Source: Methylopila jiangsuensis (GTDB lineage: Bacteria > Pseudomonadota > Alphaproteobacteria > Rhizobiales > Methylopilaceae). Taken from it: DNA of 64,000 nucleotides. The translations under genes and the position numbers were made by a program. Where the stretch lies: positions 992,001-1,056,000 of the forward strand of contig NZ_BSFK01000005.1 in NCBI RefSeq assembly GCF_027922305.1, in the 5' to 3' direction. Each line of letters begins with the position of its first letter. Positions within the stretch are counted from its first letter, which is position 1. The notes beneath the pieces were generated by a model. That model made no database searches, was not told where the DNA came from, and saw only the letters and a program-made list of their open reading frames with translations. This document shows positions 16,390-25,738 of this stretch, piece by piece.

Positions 16390-17901
16390 TCACAGCGCCA
16401 CGGACACGATCACGCACACTCCGGCGCCGCCCAGGCCGCCGCTTCCCGAACCGTAAGCGGCGCGTCCGGCTCCTCCGCCGCCACCGCCTCCGCCGCTTTC
16501 CCCGCCCGCGCCCCCCGCGCCGGGGCTCCCGGACGTGATCGATCCTCCTCCACCTCCCCCGCCTCCGGCGCCGCGCGCCCATCTGCGGCCGGCGCCGTCC
16601 TCTCCGTGCGCGCCGGCCGCTCCCCCAGCCCCCGCCGGCGCGAGGCGCAGCGCGCCGCCCATAGCGTAGCCCGCCGATCCTCCGCCGCCCGCGAAGCCGC
16701 CTGAGGCGGTCGCGGTGGACAGCCCGGCGCCTCCGCCGCCTGAGCCAGGCCCGGAAGCGAAGAAGACGGACCCCGCGGCCCCCGCGCCCGTCGACGAGCC
16801 CGCGCCGCCGCCGTTCGAGGCTCCGAAAGCGCCGGCGCCGCCTGCGCCTCCGGCGGCGTTGGACGTGGAGCCCCCGACGCCGCCGGAGCCGCCGGGCGCG
16901 CTCAGCGCGACGTTCTCCGGTTCCGTGCCGTTGAGCGAGAACGAGGTCGCTCCCCCGGCCCCGCCCGCCGCGCCGACGCCGGGGGAGCCCGGAGCAAGGC
17001 CCGCGCCCCCAACGCCGCCCACGCCGATGGCGACGCCGCAAGGAGCGGTCAGATCGGTGACAGGGAACTCCTCCAGCGCCAGGCCTCCTGCGCCGCCGCC
17101 GCCCCCGCCGCCGCGGATGTAGGTGCTTTCGCCGCACGCGCCGCTTCCGCCTCCCCCGCCGCCTCCGATCAGCAGCACCCGGCAGCGCGACGCCCAGGAG
17201 GGAGGCGACCACGTCCCACCGGCCGTGAGCACGTCGACCTGCGCCCGCTGCGGCGACAGCGGAAAGGATAGGCGGCCGTCCTCCGGCGAGGCCTCGAACA
17301 CGGTCTTCCAGACCGCGCCGTCCCCGGACACTTTCAGCGCGAAGCGGTCGGCGCCGATCAGGCCGAGCTCCGCGCGGCCGGAGAAGCCGGTCTGCAGCAG
17401 CAGGCTCGCCACGTCGCCCGCCGCCGCCTTGTTCAGCTTCAGCCGCATGTCGTCGCCGTCATGGGTGAACAGCGCGGCGTCGGCCGCCACCGCCAGCCGG
17501 TTGGCGGCGTCGGCCGTGGCGTTGACGCCAAGCGTCGAAAGCCCGTCGAGCGCGGCGATCAGGCCGGCGGCGCCGACCCAGGCGCCGCCCACGAAGGCGA
17601 GCAGCGCGTTCTCCGCCGCCACGTAAGCCAGCCAGCCGGGCTTCGGCGCGATGAAGGCCCAGACGCCGTCGAGCCGGGCGGCGATGCGGCCGTCCCGCCC
17701 GGCCCAGAGCCCGGTCGCGCCCGCGGCCACGATGTGGCGGTCGCCCTCGGCGGGGACGGCCGGCGGCTCGGTCCGGGTCCGGTCCAGCACGCCGCACTGC
17801 ACCAGCGCGTCGAGCCGGCGGAAGGCCTCGTTGACGGTGACGTGCTTCTGCGCCTGCGACGGCGCCAGATAGCCGAGCCCGAGATGGGGGCTGTCGCTCA
17901 T
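16390..17901 (-). CDS. DUF2793 protein with glycine-rich tail-fibre-like C-terminus
   Basis: 503 residues. The first about 110 residues match DUF2793 (LGLGYLAPSQAQKHVTVNEA, GDRHIVAAGATGLWAG), a module found at the end of GTA and phage tail regions. Residues about 110-250 contain a second tail-type domain. From about 245 a glycine-rich domain starts at GGTWSPPSWASRCRVLLIGG and runs to the end with long Gly/Ala/Ser blocks, as in phage fibres that use polyglycine helices for receptor binding. It is 39 bases downstream of g15, so it probably belongs to the particle as the host-contact protein. GGAG precedes the ATG at 17901. Confidence 0.8.
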   Translation of the reverse strand: MSDSPHLGLGYLAPSQAQKHVTVNEAFRRLDALVQCGVLDRTRTEPPAVPAEGDRHIVAAGATGLWAGRDGRIAARLDGVWAFIAPKPGWLAYVAAENALLAFVGGAWVGAAGLIAALDGLSTLGVNATADAANRLAVAADAALFTHDGDDMRLKLNKAAAGDVASLLLQTGFSGRAELGLIGADRFALKVSGDGAVWKTVFEASPEDGRLSFPLSPQRAQVDVLTAGGTWSPPSWASRCRVLLIGGGGGGGSGACGESTYIRGGGGGGGAGGLALEEFPVTDLTAPCGVAIGVGGVGGAGLAPGSPGVGAAGGAGGATSFSLNGTEPENVALSAPGGSGGVGGSTSNAAGGAGGAGAFGASNGGGAGSSTGAGAAGSVFFASGPGSGGGGAGLSTATASGGFAGGGGSAGYAMGGALRLAPAGAGGAAGAHGEDGAGRRWARGAGGGGGGGGSITSGSPGAGGAGGESGGGGGGGGAGRAAYGSGSGGLGGAGVCVIVSVAL

Positions 17902-17940
17902 GGGTTCAGGCTCCGATCAGAGAGAAACGCGGACGGCCGT

Positions 17941-20900
17941 TCAGACGGCGAAGCTTTCCGCCGCCGTCAGGCCCGGCCCGACGGTCGCGGAGAGCTGCCG
18001 CACCCGCAGTTCGATCGCCGTGGCCGGCCCGCCGAGGTCTGCCGCTTGCTGGGCGGCGGCGTAGAGCGCGGACGGCGACGTGGTCTCGAACGTCCGGACC
18101 CGCGCGCCGCCCGCCCAGACCTCGGCCTCATAGGCCTCGGTCTCCTCGCCGAGCCGGACCTCGCGGGCGTCGAAATCGTCGCCGCCGATCCGCGTGCGGC
18201 GGATCCAGCCGAACCGCAGGTCGCCGTTGGCGAGCCTGCGCGCCGAGAGCCGCACCGGCGCGAGCGGCCGCAGCCCGCGCCCGGCCATGGGCGCTGCGAG
18301 CGGGACATAGGCCGGATCGCCGCGCGGCAGCGTCGCCGGCCCCGCCGACCATGCGAGCGTCAGGCCGCGCTCGGTCTCCGGCGCTTCCGACGCCGGCGTC
18401 GCCGCGCCGATCAGGGCGAAGGCGGCGCCGGCGGGCGTGGGATCGCCCATGGCGTCCTCCGTGCCCGCCTGCCCGCGCAGCAGCGCGGTGAGGCGCCAGC
18501 GGCCGGACCCGACGAGCGCGGCGTCGCGGAACTGCACCACCTCCCATTGGCCGGAAGGCCCCCGCACCGCCGCCGCGTTGGCGCCGGCGAACAGCGCCTG
18601 CTCGGTGACGCTCTCGAGCGTGCGGTCCGGGCCGATCTCCACCTCCAGCGCGTTGGCATGGTCGAAGCGGCCGCTGGCGTGGCGGGGAAGCGGCGCCTTC
18701 AGCTCGCCGAGCGTCGCCGGCAGCGGCAGCACCTGGTCCAACTCGAACGCCGCCCCGTCGCGGGAGCGATAGACCGCCATGGGCGCCCAGGGCTTGGCGT
18801 AGGCCGCAAGCCGCGGCGCGTGCGCCGGCTCGTCGCCGGAGAGCAGCGGCAGGTCGAGCACGGCGAAGACCGGCGCCACCGCGCGCGGCCGGTCCGGCGG
18901 CGGACGGGGATCGTCCTGCACCGGCGCGACGGAGCGCGCGTCCGGGTCCGCCCGCACGGCCTTCACCGGGCGGCCGTACTCCTCGCCCACCTCGTCAAGC
19001 CGCATCAGCGTGGTCCGGCCATGGGCGGCGAAGGCCACCAGATCGCCCGGCTCAAGCGCCAGCCGGCCCGGCGGCAGGGTCCACTCGCCGCGCTCGCGCC
19101 GAACCGAGGCTTCGATCAGCAGGCCGTCCGCCAGCGCCTGCGCCTCTGGCGCGGTCAGCGCCAGCGGCACGCTGATTTCGGCCACCGCGCGGCCCTCGCC
19201 CGCGAGCCGCCGCGCCTCCACCGCGCCCTGCCGGTAGTCGATCTCCGGGTCCACATGGCGCAGCTGAAGCGCCGCCGGCACTTCGGAGGCCTGCGCGCGG
19301 GTGAGGCGGAAGGCGGGCTTGCCCTCGCCGGGGTCGATCAGGTCGTCCGGCGTCAGCACGGCCACCGGCGCGGCCGGGCGGTTCGCCAGCCGCACGCCCT
19401 CGCCGCGCTGCTGGGCGGTGGCGTTGAAGGCCTCCATCAGCGGCTCGATGGCGTCGCGGGGCGCCATCACCCGGTCCACGGCGTAGCCGCGCACCACGCC
19501 GTCGAGATCGTCGAGGTCGAAGGCCACGCCCGACGGGGCGGCGAGCTCCGCCACCACGTCGCGCAGGCTCGCGAAGCCCAGCCGGCCGGACAGCCAGTGC
19601 CCGCGCCGCCAGTTGGCCGCGTCGGCCCAGACGTCCGAGCGCAGCGGATAGGCCGGATGCGGGCGGGCGTCCCAGGTCCATGCGTGTATACGCACAGTGT
19701 CGATCATGCGCAGGCCGGTGACGGCGGAGACCGGATTGTTCCCGGCGGCCGGCGCCCAATGGGCGAGCTGCGCGGTCAGATAGGCGCGCTGGGCCACGTC
19801 GTCCCGGCGGCCGTTGGAGAAATGCGGCAGCGCGCTCTCGGACGACTTCTCGTCCACGAACACGTTGGGCTGGTTGGCGCCCTTGTCCACCGCGGGGCAC
19901 CCCACCTCGCAGAAGCGGATCGGCTTCGACTGCGGAACCCAGGCGGTGGGCGTCGCAGAACGGACGCCGCCCGGCCGGTCGTGATGGGCGTTCGCCCACC
20001 AGCCGCGGAAATCCTTGACGCGGAACGCCCAGTGCTCGCCGTGGGCCGTGTCGGCGATCGGCGTGCGGACCTGCGCGGCGCGGTCGGCTTGGGAGGCGTA
20101 GAACCAGTCGTAGCCCTCGCCGCCCTCCACATTGGCGTCGAGATAGGCGGGATCGTAAGGCCCGCGCCAGCCGGCCAGCGCGTCCAGATGGCCGCCGCCG
20201 TCGCGCCAGTCGGCGAGCGGCGCGTAGGCGTCCACGCCGACGAAATCCACGTTCGCGTCCGCCCACAGCGGGTCGAGATGGAACAGCACGTCGCCGGAGG
20301 CGTCGTCCGGGCGGTGGCCGGCGTATTCGGTCCAGTCGGCGGCGTAGCCGATCTTCACGTCCGGCCCCAGCACCCAGCGCGCGTCGGCGGCGAGAGCCTT
20401 GAGGGCGGCGACCGCCGGATAGCTCGCCGGAGCGTCGCGCACCGTGGTCAGGCCGATCATCTCGGAGCCGATCAGGAAGGCGTCCACGCCGCCGGCGGCT
20501 TTCGCCAGCCGCGCCATGTGCAGGATGAAGCGGCGGTAGGACCAGTCGTCGCCCTCGCCGTCGAAGGTCACGGTGTGGTCGCCGCCGTCCCAGCCGAAAT
20601 CGGCGCGGTCGGCGGCGCCGAAGAAGGCGGCCACCTGCGCCGCCGCCACGGGCCCCCTGTCCGGCGAACCGGCGCGCCCCGGCGCCGGGTGGCAGGTGAT
20701 GCGCCCGCGCCAGGGATAGGCCGCCTGCTCCGCGCCGCCGTAAGGGTCCGGCAGCCCGTTGCCCGACGGGATGTCCATCAGGATGAAGGGCGTCAGCGTC
20801 ACCTCGAAGCCGCGCGCCTTCAGCTCCCGGATCGCCTGCTCCACCGCCCGGTCGGCGGGGGCGCCGCCGAGCGCCGGCGCGCCGTCCACCCGGCTGACGA

Positions 20901-21879
20901 TGGCCGCGTCGCCCCGGCCCATGTCCGCCACGCGCCAGCTCCACGGCCGGGTGATCTTGTCGTCGGTCTCCACCTTGGGAACGATCCGGCAATGGCCGGC
21001 GCGCAGGTCCGTGCCGTGCCACGCCACGATCAGCGACGCCGCCTTCACGTTGGGCGCGAGCGCCTGCAGGTCGTCCAGCGCCACGTTGAGGTCGGCGTCG
21101 TCGTATTCGGTGTGGACGTTCTCGCTGGCATAGGCTCCGAAGCCAGCGCGGCGCTCGATCCGGTCGGTGGCGTAGGCGAATTCGGCGGAGCCGGGGATCA
21201 GCGTCACCGCCCGCAGCAGGTCCTCGAGCTGGGGCTCCGCCGACGGCGGGCGGCGGATCACCTCCACCGTGATCTGGGGCACGCGGTTGCCGAAATCGCC
21301 GATCGGCAGCTCGTCGAACACCAGATAGGCGAGACCGCGGAAGGCCGGCGCGAACTCGGCCCCCTCCACCGCCGCGATCTTGGGATCGGGAAGCTGGTCC
21401 TCGGTCCCCCGATGGAGCCGCACGTCATAGGCGCCCGGGTCGATGGCGCGGCCGTCGGCCCAGATGCGGCCGATCCCGTCGATCCCGCCCTCGCACAGGC
21501 CGACGGCGAAGCTCGCGAAGTAGCTGTAGGTGGTGGTCTTCACCTTCGGCCCGCCGCCCTTGCCGCCCGAGCTCTGGGTGGAGCTGGTCTCCCGGAACCG
21601 GCTCGCCCAGATCACCTGCCCGCCGACCCGCATGCGGCCATAGACCCGCAGCACCGGCGCGCCCTCGGTGGAGGCGGTGACGCGCAGGTCGTCCAGCCGG
21701 GGCCCGGCGCGGCGCGTGGTGGTGGAGAGCACCGTCTGGTCGAGCATGGAGCCCGCCAGCCCGCCGAGCGCCCCGCCAAGCGCCGCTCCGGACAGCGTGG
21801 CGCCGAACAGGCTCAGGCCTCCCGGCAGCAGCGCCCCGCCGATGGCGGAGCCCACGGCGGTGAGCGCGAGAACGGCCAT
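17941..21879 (-). CDS. GTA tail protein gp15 (TIM-barrel-like host specificity protein)
   Basis: At 1312 residues this is the largest GTA protein and corresponds to the baseplate hub / megatron of RcGTA. The N-terminus is glycine-rich and hydrophobic (GAALGGALGGLAGSML). A glycosidase-like TIM-barrel module lies around residues 380-760 (FLIGSEMIGLTTVRD, YAADWTEY, VDFVGVDAYAPLADW), followed by a phage-tail module and a fibronectin-like C-terminal region. Length agrees with the family. It begins after a palindromic repeat (21933-22026) that separates it from g14. Confidence 0.93.
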   Translation of the reverse strand: MAVLALTAVGSAIGGALLPGGLSLFGATLSGAALGGALGGLAGSMLDQTVLSTTTRRAGPRLDDLRVTASTEGAPVLRVYGRMRVGGQVIWASRFRETSSTQSSGGKGGGPKVKTTTYSYFASFAVGLCEGGIDGIGRIWADGRAIDPGAYDVRLHRGTEDQLPDPKIAAVEGAEFAPAFRGLAYLVFDELPIGDFGNRVPQITVEVIRRPPSAEPQLEDLLRAVTLIPGSAEFAYATDRIERRAGFGAYASENVHTEYDDADLNVALDDLQALAPNVKAASLIVAWHGTDLRAGHCRIVPKVETDDKITRPWSWRVADMGRGDAAIVSRVDGAPALGGAPADRAVEQAIRELKARGFEVTLTPFILMDIPSGNGLPDPYGGAEQAAYPWRGRITCHPAPGRAGSPDRGPVAAAQVAAFFGAADRADFGWDGGDHTVTFDGEGDDWSYRRFILHMARLAKAAGGVDAFLIGSEMIGLTTVRDAPASYPAVAALKALAADARWVLGPDVKIGYAADWTEYAGHRPDDASGDVLFHLDPLWADANVDFVGVDAYAPLADWRDGGGHLDALAGWRGPYDPAYLDANVEGGEGYDWFYASQADRAAQVRTPIADTAHGEHWAFRVKDFRGWWANAHHDRPGGVRSATPTAWVPQSKPIRFCEVGCPAVDKGANQPNVFVDEKSSESALPHFSNGRRDDVAQRAYLTAQLAHWAPAAGNNPVSAVTGLRMIDTVRIHAWTWDARPHPAYPLRSDVWADAANWRRGHWLSGRLGFASLRDVVAELAAPSGVAFDLDDLDGVVRGYAVDRVMAPRDAIEPLMEAFNATAQQRGEGVRLANRPAAPVAVLTPDDLIDPGEGKPAFRLTRAQASEVPAALQLRHVDPEIDYRQGAVEARRLAGEGRAVAEISVPLALTAPEAQALADGLLIEASVRRERGEWTLPPGRLALEPGDLVAFAAHGRTTLMRLDEVGEEYGRPVKAVRADPDARSVAPVQDDPRPPPDRPRAVAPVFAVLDLPLLSGDEPAHAPRLAAYAKPWAPMAVYRSRDGAAFELDQVLPLPATLGELKAPLPRHASGRFDHANALEVEIGPDRTLESVTEQALFAGANAAAVRGPSGQWEVVQFRDAALVGSGRWRLTALLRGQAGTEDAMGDPTPAGAAFALIGAATPASEAPETERGLTLAWSAGPATLPRGDPAYVPLAAPMAGRGLRPLAPVRLSARRLANGDLRFGWIRRTRIGGDDFDAREVRLGEETEAYEAEVWAGGARVRTFETTSPSALYAAAQQAADLGGPATAIELRVRQLSATVGPGLTAAESFAV

Positions 21880-21932
21880 GGGAGGAACCTCGGAGCCGGT
21901 TTGAAAAGCGCCGAAGCGCGACTGAACCTCCC

Positions 21933-22026
21933 GTCATGCCCGGCGAACGCCGGGCATCCACGACTTGAACCCGCACGCCCTTGCGCGGCCGAAGTCGTGG
22001 ATGCCCGAGACAGGCTCGGGCATGAC
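21933..22026. repeat. Palindromic repeat, copy 1
   Basis: A 94-base dyad: outer arms GTCATGCCCG / CGGGCATGAC and inner arms CGGGCATCCACGACTT / AAGTCGTGGATGCCCG, allowing a nested cruciform or RNA hairpin. Near-identical copies are at 27183, 32664 and 59378 and a reduced one at 35235. This copy separates g14 and g15 of the GTA. Confidence 0.9.
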
Positions 22027-22054
22027 GAGGAGCTTGACGGGTCTGGACTGGCCT

Positions 22055-22501
22055 TCAGACGTCGAACGACGACTCCGGAAAGCGGAAGCGGGCGGCGAGG
22101 CGGCGGCGCCAGGCGGGGGCGACGGGCGTCTCCACCACGCCGTGGCCGTCATAGGCGTGGATCATGCGGTCCGGCCCGCAGGCGACGCCCGCATGGCGCG
22201 GGGGGCCGCCGGGCTTCAGGCGGAACAGCAGCACGTCGCCGGGGACGATCCCGCCCGGCGGGGCCGCAGCCAGCCAGCGCCGGGCGGCGTCGATCAGCAG
22301 GTCCGGCGCGCCGTCCTCCGCCCAGCTTCGGGCGTAGGGCGGCGGGGGTTCGGGCTCCGGCCCGACCAGCTCGCGCCACAGCCCGCGCACCAGCCCCAGG
22401 CAGTCCGCGCCGGCGCCGCGCAGGCTCGCCTGATGGCGGTAGGGCGTGCCGATCCAGCCCCGCGCGGCCGCCACCACGCGATCCGGCGCGATCTCAGCCA
22501 C
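22055..22501 (-). CDS. GTA gp14, NlpC/P60 cell-wall peptidase
   Basis: 148-residue cysteine peptidase of the particle tail that opens recipient peptidoglycan during DNA entry. The catalytic residues of the NlpC/P60 fold are visible: Cys34 in GADCLGLVRG, His103 in PPRHAGVAC and His115 in MIHAYDGHG. The start overlaps the end of g13 by 8 bases. Standard length and position for RcGTA g14. Confidence 0.93.
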   Translation of the reverse strand: MAEIAPDRVVAAARGWIGTPYRHQASLRGAGADCLGLVRGLWRELVGPEPEPPPPYARSWAEDGAPDLLIDAARRWLAAAPPGGIVPGDVLLFRLKPGGPPRHAGVACGPDRMIHAYDGHGVVETPVAPAWRRRLAARFRFPESSFDV

Positions 22502-23366
22502 GACGGCCGCCGTCGTTGTCGCCGTCGGAGCGGGCGGGCTGGGCCAGCCAGTCGTTGCCGGGCATCAGGGGAAATCCGCGAAAATTCACCTGATTGCCGA
22601 ACCGCTTGCGGCAGGTGGCGAAGGTCTTGTCGCACCCGGCGGTGACGGTGAAGCCGTCGCCCGGCGCGATCGCCATGGGCGGCGTCTCCGCGAGTTCGAC
22701 GGCGGCGCCGTCCTGCGCGCGCACCTCCGCCGCGGCGCCCCGGTTGGCGCCGGAGGTCCAGACCAGCCGGCCGCGCGCGAAGGCGTCGCCGCGCCCGGCG
22801 AGCGCCGCCGCGCTGAAGCCCCGCGCGCCGGTCACCGCCGCCGCCACGCCCTCGGCCCGGTGGAGGGGAAGCGACAGGTCGATCCCGCAGCGGGCGTCGC
22901 CGAGCGCGGCGTCGCAGGCGCGCTGGTAGAGCCGCCCCTGCGGCTGCTGCAGCGCGTGCGCCACGGAGCGCAGCTCGGCGGTGAACAGGCTGCGCTCGCG
23001 GGCGATCTCGCCGAGCGCGCCCCTGAACAGCAGCAGCCGGGAGGCCGGATCGCGCCAGTCCACCAGATAAAGCCGCGCCTCGGCGCCGTCATAGAGCCCG
23101 CGGGCGAGATCGGCCTCGGTGAGCGCGGCGTCGTCCAGCGCGCCCACCACGTCGAGCCCGCCGGCGGCGAGGCCGAGCGCGGACGACGCCGCCGAGGCGC
23201 TCATGCCGCTCGCGGCGCGGTAGAGATCGCCGCCGAAGGCGATGTCCTCGTCGTGGTCGGTGAAGCCGAGCGCGACGCCGTCGCGCCTTTCCAGCCGCCA
23301 GCAGCGGGCGAAGGTGGTGACGCCAGACGCGAGCGCGGCCGCCATCGGCGCCGGGATGTCCCTCAT
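22494..23366 (-). CDS. GTA gp13, tail/baseplate protein (BR0599 family)
   Basis: 290 residues of the phage BR0599/DUF2163 family. The N-terminus TFARCWRLERRDGVALGFTD and the segment CDAALGDARCGIDL are characteristic, as is the Cys pair near the C-terminus (CDKTFATCRKRFGNQVNFRG), which in RcGTA gp13 coordinates an iron-sulfur cluster; four cysteines suitable for that are present here. It forms part of the baseplate hub. It lies 10 bases after g12 and overlaps g14. Confidence 0.92.
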   Translation of the reverse strand: MRDIPAPMAAALASGVTTFARCWRLERRDGVALGFTDHDEDIAFGGDLYRAASGMSASAASSALGLAAGGLDVVGALDDAALTEADLARGLYDGAEARLYLVDWRDPASRLLLFRGALGEIARERSLFTAELRSVAHALQQPQGRLYQRACDAALGDARCGIDLSLPLHRAEGVAAAVTGARGFSAAALAGRGDAFARGRLVWTSGANRGAAAEVRAQDGAAVELAETPPMAIAPGDGFTVTAGCDKTFATCRKRFGNQVNFRGFPLMPGNDWLAQPARSDGDNDGGRRG

Positions 23367-24211: not shown

Positions 24212-24754
24212 TCACAGGCCCCGCTGGCCGCGGGCGACGGCGCGGGCGAGGGTCGCGGTGAGCTGGCCCTCGGCGCGGCGGAAGCTCTCGACGTCGGGCG
24301 TCGCGATGTTCACGGTGATCGGCGCGGCCCGCGCCCCGCCCGACGCGGCCACGCCGAGGCGTCCGTCCGCGCCGCGGGCGAGCGGCAGCACCGCTTCCGG
24401 CCCCGCCTCGCCGGCGAGCGCCAGCCCCGCGCCGCCGTTGGGCAGCACTGTGGGAGACGCCAGCACCCCGCCCTTGGCGAAGGGCGTGACGCCGGCGAAC
24501 AGGTTCTGCGTCAGGTTCGAGAACAGCGAGCCCAGCGTGTTCTCCACCGGCTTCAGCGCGCTCTGCAGCGCGAGCTGCGACAGGCGGGAGCCCAGCCCCC
24601 GCAGCACGTCGGTGAGCGAACGACCCTTGACCACGCCGCCTTCGAGCGCGGCTCCCAGCGCGCGGCCGAAGCCGCGGGTCAGCCGGTCCGCCTCCGCGAT
24701 CTCGCGCCGGAAGCCGGTGGTGTCCACGGAGATCGCGATCGGGTCGTCAGCCAT
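24212..24754 (-). CDS. GTA gp11, short tape-measure protein
   Basis: 180-residue tail length determinant. The N-terminal half is helical (FGRALGAALEGGVVKGRSLT), and the C-terminal half has the tape-measure tail motif FAKGGVLASPTVLPNGGAG and GEAGPEAVLPLARGADGRLG. It is somewhat shorter than I recall for RcGTA gp11, consistent with a very short tail. It starts 3 bases after the g10.1 stop. Confidence 0.9.
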   Translation of the reverse strand: MADDPIAISVDTTGFRREIAEADRLTRGFGRALGAALEGGVVKGRSLTDVLRGLGSRLSQLALQSALKPVENTLGSLFSNLTQNLFAGVTPFAKGGVLASPTVLPNGGAGLALAGEAGPEAVLPLARGADGRLGVAASGGARAAPITVNIATPDVESFRRAEGQLTATLARAVARGQRGL

Positions 24755-24757
24755 GGC

Positions 24758-24964
24758 TCAGGTCTCCTGATCGGGGAAGCGCGCCATCAGCGCGGCGAGA
24801 TCGGCGCGGCCCATGGCCGGGGGGCCGGCGGGCGGGCGAAAGGCGCGGGCGGCGGCCGCGATCTCCTTCGGCGTGGCGCGCCAGAAGGCGTCCGGCGCGA
24901 GGCCGAGGCGTCCGAGGCCGAAGGCGGTCAGCTCGTCCCAGGGGAAGGCGCGCGGGCCAAAGGG
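24758..24964 (-). CDS. GTA g10.1, tail-assembly chaperone extension, probably made by -1 frameshift
   Basis: A 66-codon frame after the slippery site reads GPRAFPWDELTAFGLGRLGL, then the family segment DAFWRATPKEIAAAARAF and the ending LMARFPDQET, matching the small g10.1 (TIGR02216) protein of GTAs. The frame is open back only to a stop at 25001-25003 and contains no ATG, GTG or TTG before Met 20 residues from its end. It is in the -1 frame relative to g10. The heptamer CCCTTTG (minus strand 24964-24958) is positioned as C-CCT-TTG in the g10 frame. The likely product is a g10-g10.1 fusion of about 185 residues, like the G/GT chaperones of tailed phages. Confidence 0.75.
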   Translation of the reverse strand, partial: PFGPRAFPWDELTAFGLGRLGLAPDAFWRATPKEIAAAARAFRPPAGPPAMGRADLAALMARFPDQET

Positions 24965-25314
24965 CCGGCGGCCTCGGCCGCGCCCTCCCCGCCGCCGCCA
25001 TCACCGCCGCCGAAGGTCGCGGCCAGCAGCTCCGCCACCACCCGCACGAAACCGGCGGCGCCGTCGTCATGGGTGAGGCGGGCGGCGCCGGCCTCGTCGA
25101 TCTCGGTCCCTCCGCCGCGCAGGCCCGCCGCCAGGATGCGGGCGGCGTCGCGGGCGGACAGGCGGCCGTGCTCGAAGCGCTCGGCCAGCGCCACCAGATC
25201 GGCGACCCCGAAGGCGTCCTCCAGTTCGGCGAGCGCGCCAAGCGTCAGCACCAGACGATGAGGCCGGCCGTCGAACACGGCCTCCACCTCGCCGCGGCGG
25301 CGGTTCACGGGCAT
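24928..25314 (-). CDS. GTA gp10, tail-assembly chaperone
   Basis: 128 residues of the GTA_gp10-type chaperone family. The core FDGRPHRLVLTLGALAELED and VADLVALAERFEHGRLSARD is typical. The last 30 residues are Gly/Ala-rich (GGGDGGGGEGAAEAAGP) and overlap the g10.1 frame. By analogy to lambda gpG it coats the tape measure during tail assembly. The overlap contains a perfect slippery heptamer, see g10.1. Confidence 0.88.
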   Translation of the reverse strand: MPVNRRRGEVEAVFDGRPHRLVLTLGALAELEDAFGVADLVALAERFEHGRLSARDAARILAAGLRGGGTEIDEAGAARLTHDDGAAGFVRVVAELLAATFGGGDGGGGEGAAEAAGPLARAPSPGTS

Positions 25315-25327
25315 GGGACAGCCTCCC

Positions 25328-25738
25328 TCAGGCGGCGGTGAAGGCGAGCGCGCCGGCGCTTTCCAGCGCCAGATCGAAGGTCATCTCGCCGGCGTGGTCG
25401 CCCTTGAACTCGAGGCCCGTGACCTGGAACGGCCCCTCCACGCGCCCGAAATCCGGGATCACGATCTGGAAGGTCTCGATCGCGCCGTCGAACATCAGGC
25501 CGCGCACCAGCGCGTCCGAGGCCTCGTCCCGGAACACGCCGGTCCCGGCCACGCTCGCCCGTTTCGCGCCGGCGCCCGCCAGCAGCTCGCGCCAGCGGCC
25601 GGCGCTCTCCGCATGGGTGACGTCCACCGTCTCGGCGTTGAACGACAGCGCGCGGGAGCGCAGCCCCGCCACCGTGACGAACACGCCCGGCGCGTTCTGG
25701 ACCTTCACGAGCAGGTCCTTGCCCTTCTGGATGGCCAT
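25328..25738 (-). CDS. GTA gp9, major tail tube protein
   Basis: 136 residues of the TP901-1-type major tail protein family. It begins AIQKGKDLLVKVQNAPG, contains the family segment SFNAETVDVTHAESAGRWRE and ends in LALESAGALAFTAA. It forms the tail tube rings. It sits 13 bases before g10 and 14 after g8. Confidence 0.93.
   Translation of the reverse strand: MAIQKGKDLLVKVQNAPGVFVTVAGLRSRALSFNAETVDVTHAESAGRWRELLAGAGAKRASVAGTGVFRDEASDALVRGLMFDGAIETFQIVIPDFGRVEGPFQVTGLEFKGDHAGEMTFDLALESAGALAFTAA

Follow-up and report, generated by a model that had tools for sequence, protein, structure and literature searches.

A predicted programmed −1 ribosomal frameshift between the tail chaperone genes g10 and g10.1 in the RcGTA-like cluster of Methylopila jiangsuensis

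We suggest that the two tail chaperone genes g10 and g10.1 in the RcGTA-like cluster of Methylopila jiangsuensis are joined by a programmed −1 ribosomal frameshift. Judged from sequence comparisons this is very likely the case in the window, i.e., the whole stretch of 64,000 nucleotides that was analysed (contig NZ_BSFK01000005.1, positions 992,001–1,056,000). An earlier note on this DNA had predicted such a g10–g10.1 fusion, and the prediction is supported by the phase of a slippery heptamer in the overlap of both frames, by the conservation of this heptamer and by the near-exclusivity of heptamers and start codons in three sets of relatives.

Results

The tail chaperone locus

The cluster is located on the minus strand and has the usual order g9, g10, g10.1, g11, with the g10/g10.1 pair between the gene of the major tail protein (g9) and the tape measure gene (g11; Table 1). 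The assignment as RcGTA-like is based on profile scans of seven proteins of the cluster, which revealed homologs of RcGTA-like head–tail proteins (NF048004, megatron, 1758 bits; TIGR02217; PF05065; PF11836; PF09550). The tape measure protein comprises only 180 aa and reaches 150 bits with the RcGTA_tape profile, the cut-off being 220. On the opposite strand a 1710-aa open frame (17461–22593, +) runs antisense to g15 and its neighbours and is most likely a by-product of the high G+C content.

The AlphaFold models of g10 (pLDDT 87.7) and g10.1 (pLDDT 90.6) are confident. A fold search of both models against the PDB gave no match at E values up to 0.001, and the same holds for the g10 model against BFVD, where the best match is an unnamed entry with 1.3e-3. 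Several of the BFVD matches above E 0.001 are named tail assembly chaperone and have TM scores of about 0.5–0.6. Thus, the modelled g10 weakly resembles predicted phage tail assembly chaperones.

Table 1. Features of the g10/g10.1 region, in positions of the window
Feature	Position	Strand	Basis or remark
g9, tail tube protein	25328..25738	−	PF06199 E 8.6e-41; TIGR02126
g10, tail assembly chaperone 1 (0 frame), 128 aa	24928..25314	−	PF11836 'GTA-gp10' E 3e-29, residues 7–103
TGA in −1 frame, opens the g10.1 frame	25001..25003	−	frame reading
g10.1 (chaperone 2), stop-to-stop frame, 80 aa	24758..25000	−	PF09550 E 2.3e-18
Shine–Dalgarno-like GGGGAGGG	24983..24990	−	18 nt upstream of slip site
GAGG	24972..24975	−	7 nt upstream of slip site
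Slippery heptamer C_CCT_TTG	24958..24964	−	phase verified; GGC CCT TTG in g10 frame
g10.1 part translated after slip, predicted	24958..24761	−	−1 frame
FPW, opening residues of the conserved g10.1 domain (−1 frame)	24938..24946	−	
g10 TGA stop, 0 frame, end of unshifted translation	24928..24930	−	
g11, short tape measure protein	24212..24754	−	NF058675 RcGTA_tape E 6e-44

The junction between g10 and g10.1

The coordinates confirm that g10.1 overlaps g10 and is its −1 frame, and the TGA after which the g10.1 frame was said to open is indeed present. As the earlier note had stated, this frame contains no ATG, GTG or TTG upstream of the conserved domain; we add that none occurs in the first 12 codons of the domain either and that, counted from the end, the first Met is residue 18 instead of about 20. 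The proposed slip site CCCTTTG is phased C_CCT_TTG, that is X_XXY_YYZ, in the g10 frame. It stands nine sense codons ahead of the g10 stop, and its TTT is located 15 nt upstream of the F codon of FPW. At the g10 stop the −1 frame reads CTG, a codon within the domain (F-P-W-D-E-L). With 119 g10 codons and 66 codons in the −1 frame the fusion would have 185 residues, in agreement with the length of about 185 given before.

We define a canonical heptamer as X_XXY_YYZ with YYY being AAA or TTT. The codons of the slip site are rare in the 11 other cluster genes of the window (CCT is used for 7 of 259 Pro codons, TTG for 6 of 384 Leu codons). A canonical heptamer in the correct phase does not occur in any of the 11 genes, and in a wrong phase there is a single one. 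When the 24-codon tail of g10 was resampled synonymously (20,000 draws), a phased canonical heptamer appeared with a frequency of 0.00035. The phased C_CCT_TTG in the overlap is therefore beyond chance.

Conservation in the genus and family of the window

CCCTTT is kept in all 12 junctions of the genus, the window's own included, and the −1 relation of both frames is the same in all of them; in this comparison L021 (M. turkensis) stands for L009, the junction of which is identical. The other 11 junctions have CCCTTTC directly at P-F-P-W, whereas the window has CCCTTTG. In one genome of the genus (G014) a PF09550 match was not found. Within the genus, dN/dS is 0.46 for the g10.1 domain and 0.23 for g10, indicating that g10.1 is under purifying selection. 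The linker around the invariant CCCTTT, by contrast, evolves fast and varies in length and sequence; its dN/dS is 0.73 when read in the 0 frame and 0.82 when read in the −1 frame.

One could argue that g10.1 is in decay or results from an assembly error and that the heptamer is there by chance, as g10.1 scores 55.0 bits against TIGR02216 (rcc01693 family), slightly below the cut-off of 56.1. The PF09550 score of 66.8 (cut-off 23.4), the frame relation shared by the whole genus, the dN/dS of the g10.1 domain and the outcome of the synonymous resampling all speak against this explanation, which we consider extremely improbable.

Two further observations concern single open frames. Four loci of the genus (L017–L020, from genomes G012, G013 and G017) have weak g10-like and g10.1-like matches (25–32 and 31–39 bits, from profiles that may be trained in part on these loci) within one open frame, possibly a natural fusion of the two chaperone domains. 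In the IMG/VR locus L278 (1687–2316) the full g10 and g10.1 domains share a single frame of 210 residues with CCC TTT read in frame, which is either a natural fusion or a 1-nt indel of the metagenome assembly.

Heptamers and start codons in relatives

The first set of relatives was drawn from genomes of the family, order and class, among which PF09550 is present in 15 of 18, 101 of 150 and 24 of 190, respectively. It comprises 143 loci, including the window's own copy and six loci from named genomes. Both genes are found in 139 loci (four lack a g10 match), and with cut-offs of 60 bits for g10 and 45 bits for g10.1 127 were kept and 12 dropped. Five weak second places and two further places were left out of the locus sets. 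Heptamers were searched from the end of the g10 domain to the g10 stop.

In 111 of the 127 loci g10.1 is in the −1 frame. An X_XXY_YYZ heptamer of any kind occurs in the correct phase in 70 of these 111 and in the two wrong phases in 9 and 8. A heptamer without a start is found in 58, a start without a heptamer in 30, both in 12 and neither in 11 (Fisher p 5e-9); with one locus for each cluster at 70% identity (57 loci) the same classes contain 24, 23, 3 and 7 (p 7e-7).

The excess over chance was estimated by synonymous resampling of 108 tails, i.e., of the 111 −1-frame loci without three that have very short tails. Canonical heptamers are present in 49 of these loci, in contrast to a mean of 2.1 and a maximum of 7 in 300 draws. 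AAACCCN, a class defined post hoc from inspection of the first set, is present in 24 of the 108 loci with 2.5 expected; beyond this set there is one AAACCCC in the second set, and AAACCCT occurs 19 times in the IMG/VR set. Pooling all homotriplet heptamers into one class proved unsuitable, as the null expectation is then high (29.5 of 108, with 70 observed) because of heptamers made of G and C only; therefore, the canonical and AAACCCN heptamers were analysed separately. Phased heptamers of only C and G triplets are in fact rarer than the synonymous null in the 108 tails (5 instead of 26.5 loci), perhaps by avoidance of competing slip sites or by a flaw of the null.

A second set was drawn from the orders to which four other genomes belong; a few of their loci had already entered the first set. 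By order, PF09550 was present in 31 of 40, 3 of 3, 27 of 60 and 5 of 6 genomes. It yielded 58 new loci, 54 of which were kept and 53 of which are in the −1 frame. Among the latter, 30 have only a slip site, 22 only a start, one has both and none has neither, and the heptamer is in the correct phase in 31 and in the wrong phases in 0 and 2. Pooling the genome loci of both sets, g10.1 is in the −1 frame in 164 of 181, with 86 loci having only a heptamer, 53 only a start, 12 both and 13 neither; the remaining 17 are in other frames and all have a start.

Of 600 candidate stretches in IMG/VR, 581 were confirmed with one g10 pattern, and many of these 'viral' contigs are probably GTA clusters. The third set consists of the best 80 of the 581 loci. 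Among these 80, the −1 frame is found in 76; 39 of the 76 have a slip site and no start, 16 a start and no slip site, 16 have both and 5 neither, and the heptamer is in the correct phase in 55 and in the wrong phases in 0 and 1. Of the four loci in other frames, three have a start. The exclusivity of heptamer and start is less sharp here than in the genome sets (Fisher 2.7e-4). Repeating the analysis with the best-scoring domain for each match did not change any class in the first two sets and gave the same tables for the third. Searching phage records by tblastn, we obtained no match for g10.1 and two contigs for g10, both GTA-like in look and both with AAACCCT as well as TTGA, i.e., with slip site and start.

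The comparison of junctions across alphaproteobacterial GTAs proposed in the earlier note thus shows that heptamers are conserved in the right phase, chiefly where g10.1 has no start. The phase also bears on the possibility that transcriptional slippage produces mRNAs joining both frames. The protein outcome would be the same, and runs of six A occur in a few relatives (AAAAAAC, four occurrences among the 111 loci). However, the runs at the window site are only three long (CCC and TTT), and a strict codon phase (98 correct, 4 and 8 wrong in the 164 pooled loci) is expected of tRNA re-pairing and not of a polymerase. We therefore give transcriptional slippage hardly any weight.

Two modes of expressing g10.1

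The loci with a start form a class of their own (START loci). In 51 of the 53 START-only −1-frame loci the start overlaps the g10 stop as NTGA, and the g10 tail after the domain has a median length of 18 nt compared with 69 nt in the slip loci; the dichotomy is thus confounded with tail length, short tails leaving less room for heptamers. Clean slip and clean START loci are never mixed within a genus (0 of 86 sampled) and are mixed in 6 of 56 families. On a tree of g9, g10 and g10.1, approximate as it is a quick tree with a single-matrix model, we count at least 17 changes between both modes among 156 loci.

Among the named genomes Methylopila turkensis, a Microvirga MAG and Shinella sp. PSBB067 are of the slip type, the latter two with A_AAC_CCT as site. 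Aliiroseovarius, Paracoccus pantotrophus and P. denitrificans are START loci, in Methylobacterium bullatum TTGA is present and a heptamer of the class is absent, and two Martelella and Pseudochelatococcus have neither start nor heptamer. In five loci (L078, L130, L134, and also L093 and L109) the g10.1 domain begins 89–298 nt past the g10 stop, so that the spacer is unusually long; the class with both includes three of these loci.

Termination at the g10 stop and reinitiation at a start at or near it, with g10.1 made as a separate protein, is evidently the mode in 70 of the 181 genome loci, including the three named Rhodobacterales, as borne out by the frequent NTGA. For the window we regard this mode as very unlikely: from position 25000 to well inside the domain there is no ATG, GTG or TTG, initiation at the CTG of the g10 stop would remove FPW from the domain, and all 15 loci of the window's family that pass the cut-offs have a heptamer and no start. 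The earlier note had named homologs in which g10.1 has its own start and a slippery sequence is missing as evidence against its prediction. Such homologs do occur (53 of the 164 −1-frame loci and all 17 in other frames), but they form a separate class in other genera; the frameshift prediction stands for the window genome and is not universal to GTAs. The START lineages show that the fusion is not needed in every GTA.

In the 13 loci with neither feature (L022, L023, L025, L034, L040, L049, L050, L058, L067, L074, L080, L096 and L126) some other mechanism must be at work. Three of them (L034, L040, L050) have CTGA at the g10 stop. C_CCT in the 0 frame is present in 12 of the 13 (other phases 2 and 1) compared with 5 of the 53 START loci, the START tails being shorter in this comparison (463 codons against 331 in total). 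This may mean that slippage mainly involves the proline tRNA, and it would be compatible with a single proline tRNA slipping where no complete heptamer is present. C_CCT also occurs in 75 of the 86 slip loci (in the other phases in 14 and 1), but to use this as evidence would be circular, as CCCTTTN and AAACCCT themselves contain this motif.

Discussion

Proposed mechanism

We propose that ribosomes translating g10 reach C_CCU_UUG, where most of them would stay in frame and stop nine codons later at UGA, releasing the 128-residue chaperone. Some would slip back by one base (CCU to CCC, UUG to UUU) into the g10.1 frame and would give a product of about 185 residues that begins with the g10 domain and ends with the TAC_6 domain. 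By analogy to lambda G/GT, the short form would coat g11, the tape measure protein, and the tail tube protein g9 would be brought in by the long form. Tandem slippage is a good fit at C_CCT_TTC, whereas at the C_CCT_TTG of the window the second tRNA (A-site, UUG to UUU) re-pairs with a mismatch. A_AAC_CCT is an unusual site, although in a survey of annotated phage frameshifts all four bases are seen in each position (PMC10885494). The TTT at the Phe codon of FPW cannot serve as proof of selection, as 35 of 49 START loci use TTT too; its occurrence in the heptamer is in part a matter of codon preference.

The purine-rich, Shine–Dalgarno-like GGGGAGG upstream of the site probably aids the slip. 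GGAGG-like pairing of −6 kcal/mol or stronger at gaps of 6–7 is found in 46% of 56 start-less loci compared with 15–19% after codon shuffling, and the excess reaches to about gap 24. Downstream folding is slightly stronger than in shuffled sequences, with a mean z of −0.69 in 85 loci compared with −0.10 and 0.09 in the controls. Given this weak signal, a downstream stem–loop is probably not the main stimulator; such structures accompany some, but not all, tail-chaperone frameshifts. The E. coli dnaX gene likewise uses a −1 frameshift stimulated by a Shine–Dalgarno sequence, with a purine-rich element upstream of X_XXY_YYZ. The dnaX frameshift differs in that its product is shorter and that it uses A_AAA_AAG plus a hairpin.

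Comparison with known systems

The −1 frameshift of the lambda tail assembly chaperones G/GT and its relatives were reportedly described by Xu, Hendrix and Duda in 2004. The lambda heptamer is GGGAAAG, which is also present in some GTA relatives. As in the lambda arrangement outlined in PMC5009743, two small overlapping frames are flanked by the genes of the tail tube and the tape measure protein, the second of them is −1 and has no start, and an X_XXY_YYZ stands near the end of the first. In contrast to lambda, the GTA pair belongs to a domesticated element with a short tape measure, its usual heptamers are CCCTTTN and A_AAC_CCT, an upstream Shine–Dalgarno-like element is present, and the mode interchanges with a stop–start overlap between genera. 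By the relevant sections of several reports, frameshifted tail chaperones are well established in phages (PMC5009743, PMC3711429, PMC3556154). The phiCbK-like Caulobacter phages are alphaproteobacterial phages that use the same device, with AAAAAAC or GGGAAAC as chaperone slip site (PMC3556154), and both heptamers are also found in the GTA set. These phages are however large and prolate, and their authors link them, in the part concerned, only distantly to GTA genes 12, 13 and 15 (PMC3556154).

For RcGTA itself, g10 and g10.1 appear as tail chaperone 1 and 'tail chaperone 2 (g10.5)' and are treated as two genes where they are named in PMC11409702; as far as described there, both protein families and their order match those of the window. 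The difference is that g10.1 has its own start in the three named Rhodobacterales checked, R. capsulatus not being among them. A term search of the accessible text of PMC7296036 on the RcGTA structure gave no occurrence of chaperone, frameshift or g10, and the accessible text of PMC8601537 mentions a frameshift for phages only. Within the searchable part of the open-access literature, a scope outside of which most subscription papers and preprints lie, we found no description of a tail-chaperone frameshift in GTAs.

Implications for GTAs

For the alphaproteobacterial GTAs as a group we tentatively suggest a wider picture, which has somewhat less than even chances of being right: a −1 frameshift centred on the proline tRNA (CCU to CCC), for which C_CCU_UUN is the standard site and A_AAC_CCU an unusual one, would have been exchanged repeatedly with stop–start coupling, the second chaperone being either fused or split. 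As tail-chaperone frameshifting is already known from phages, its widespread and switchable presence in GTAs is the interesting part. The split mode of the three named Rhodobacterales may explain why the frameshift has gone unnoticed in the RcGTA model. The exchange of frameshift and stop–start overlap offers a natural comparison for the question why tail chaperones are fused at a set ratio. If our reading is correct, g10.1 will be easily missed, or given a false start, in genome annotation. Moreover, GTAs would then retain a phage recoding signal that sets tail assembly in an element that has ceased to spread as a virus, and the retained signal would be evidence of selection on GTA tails to assemble properly.
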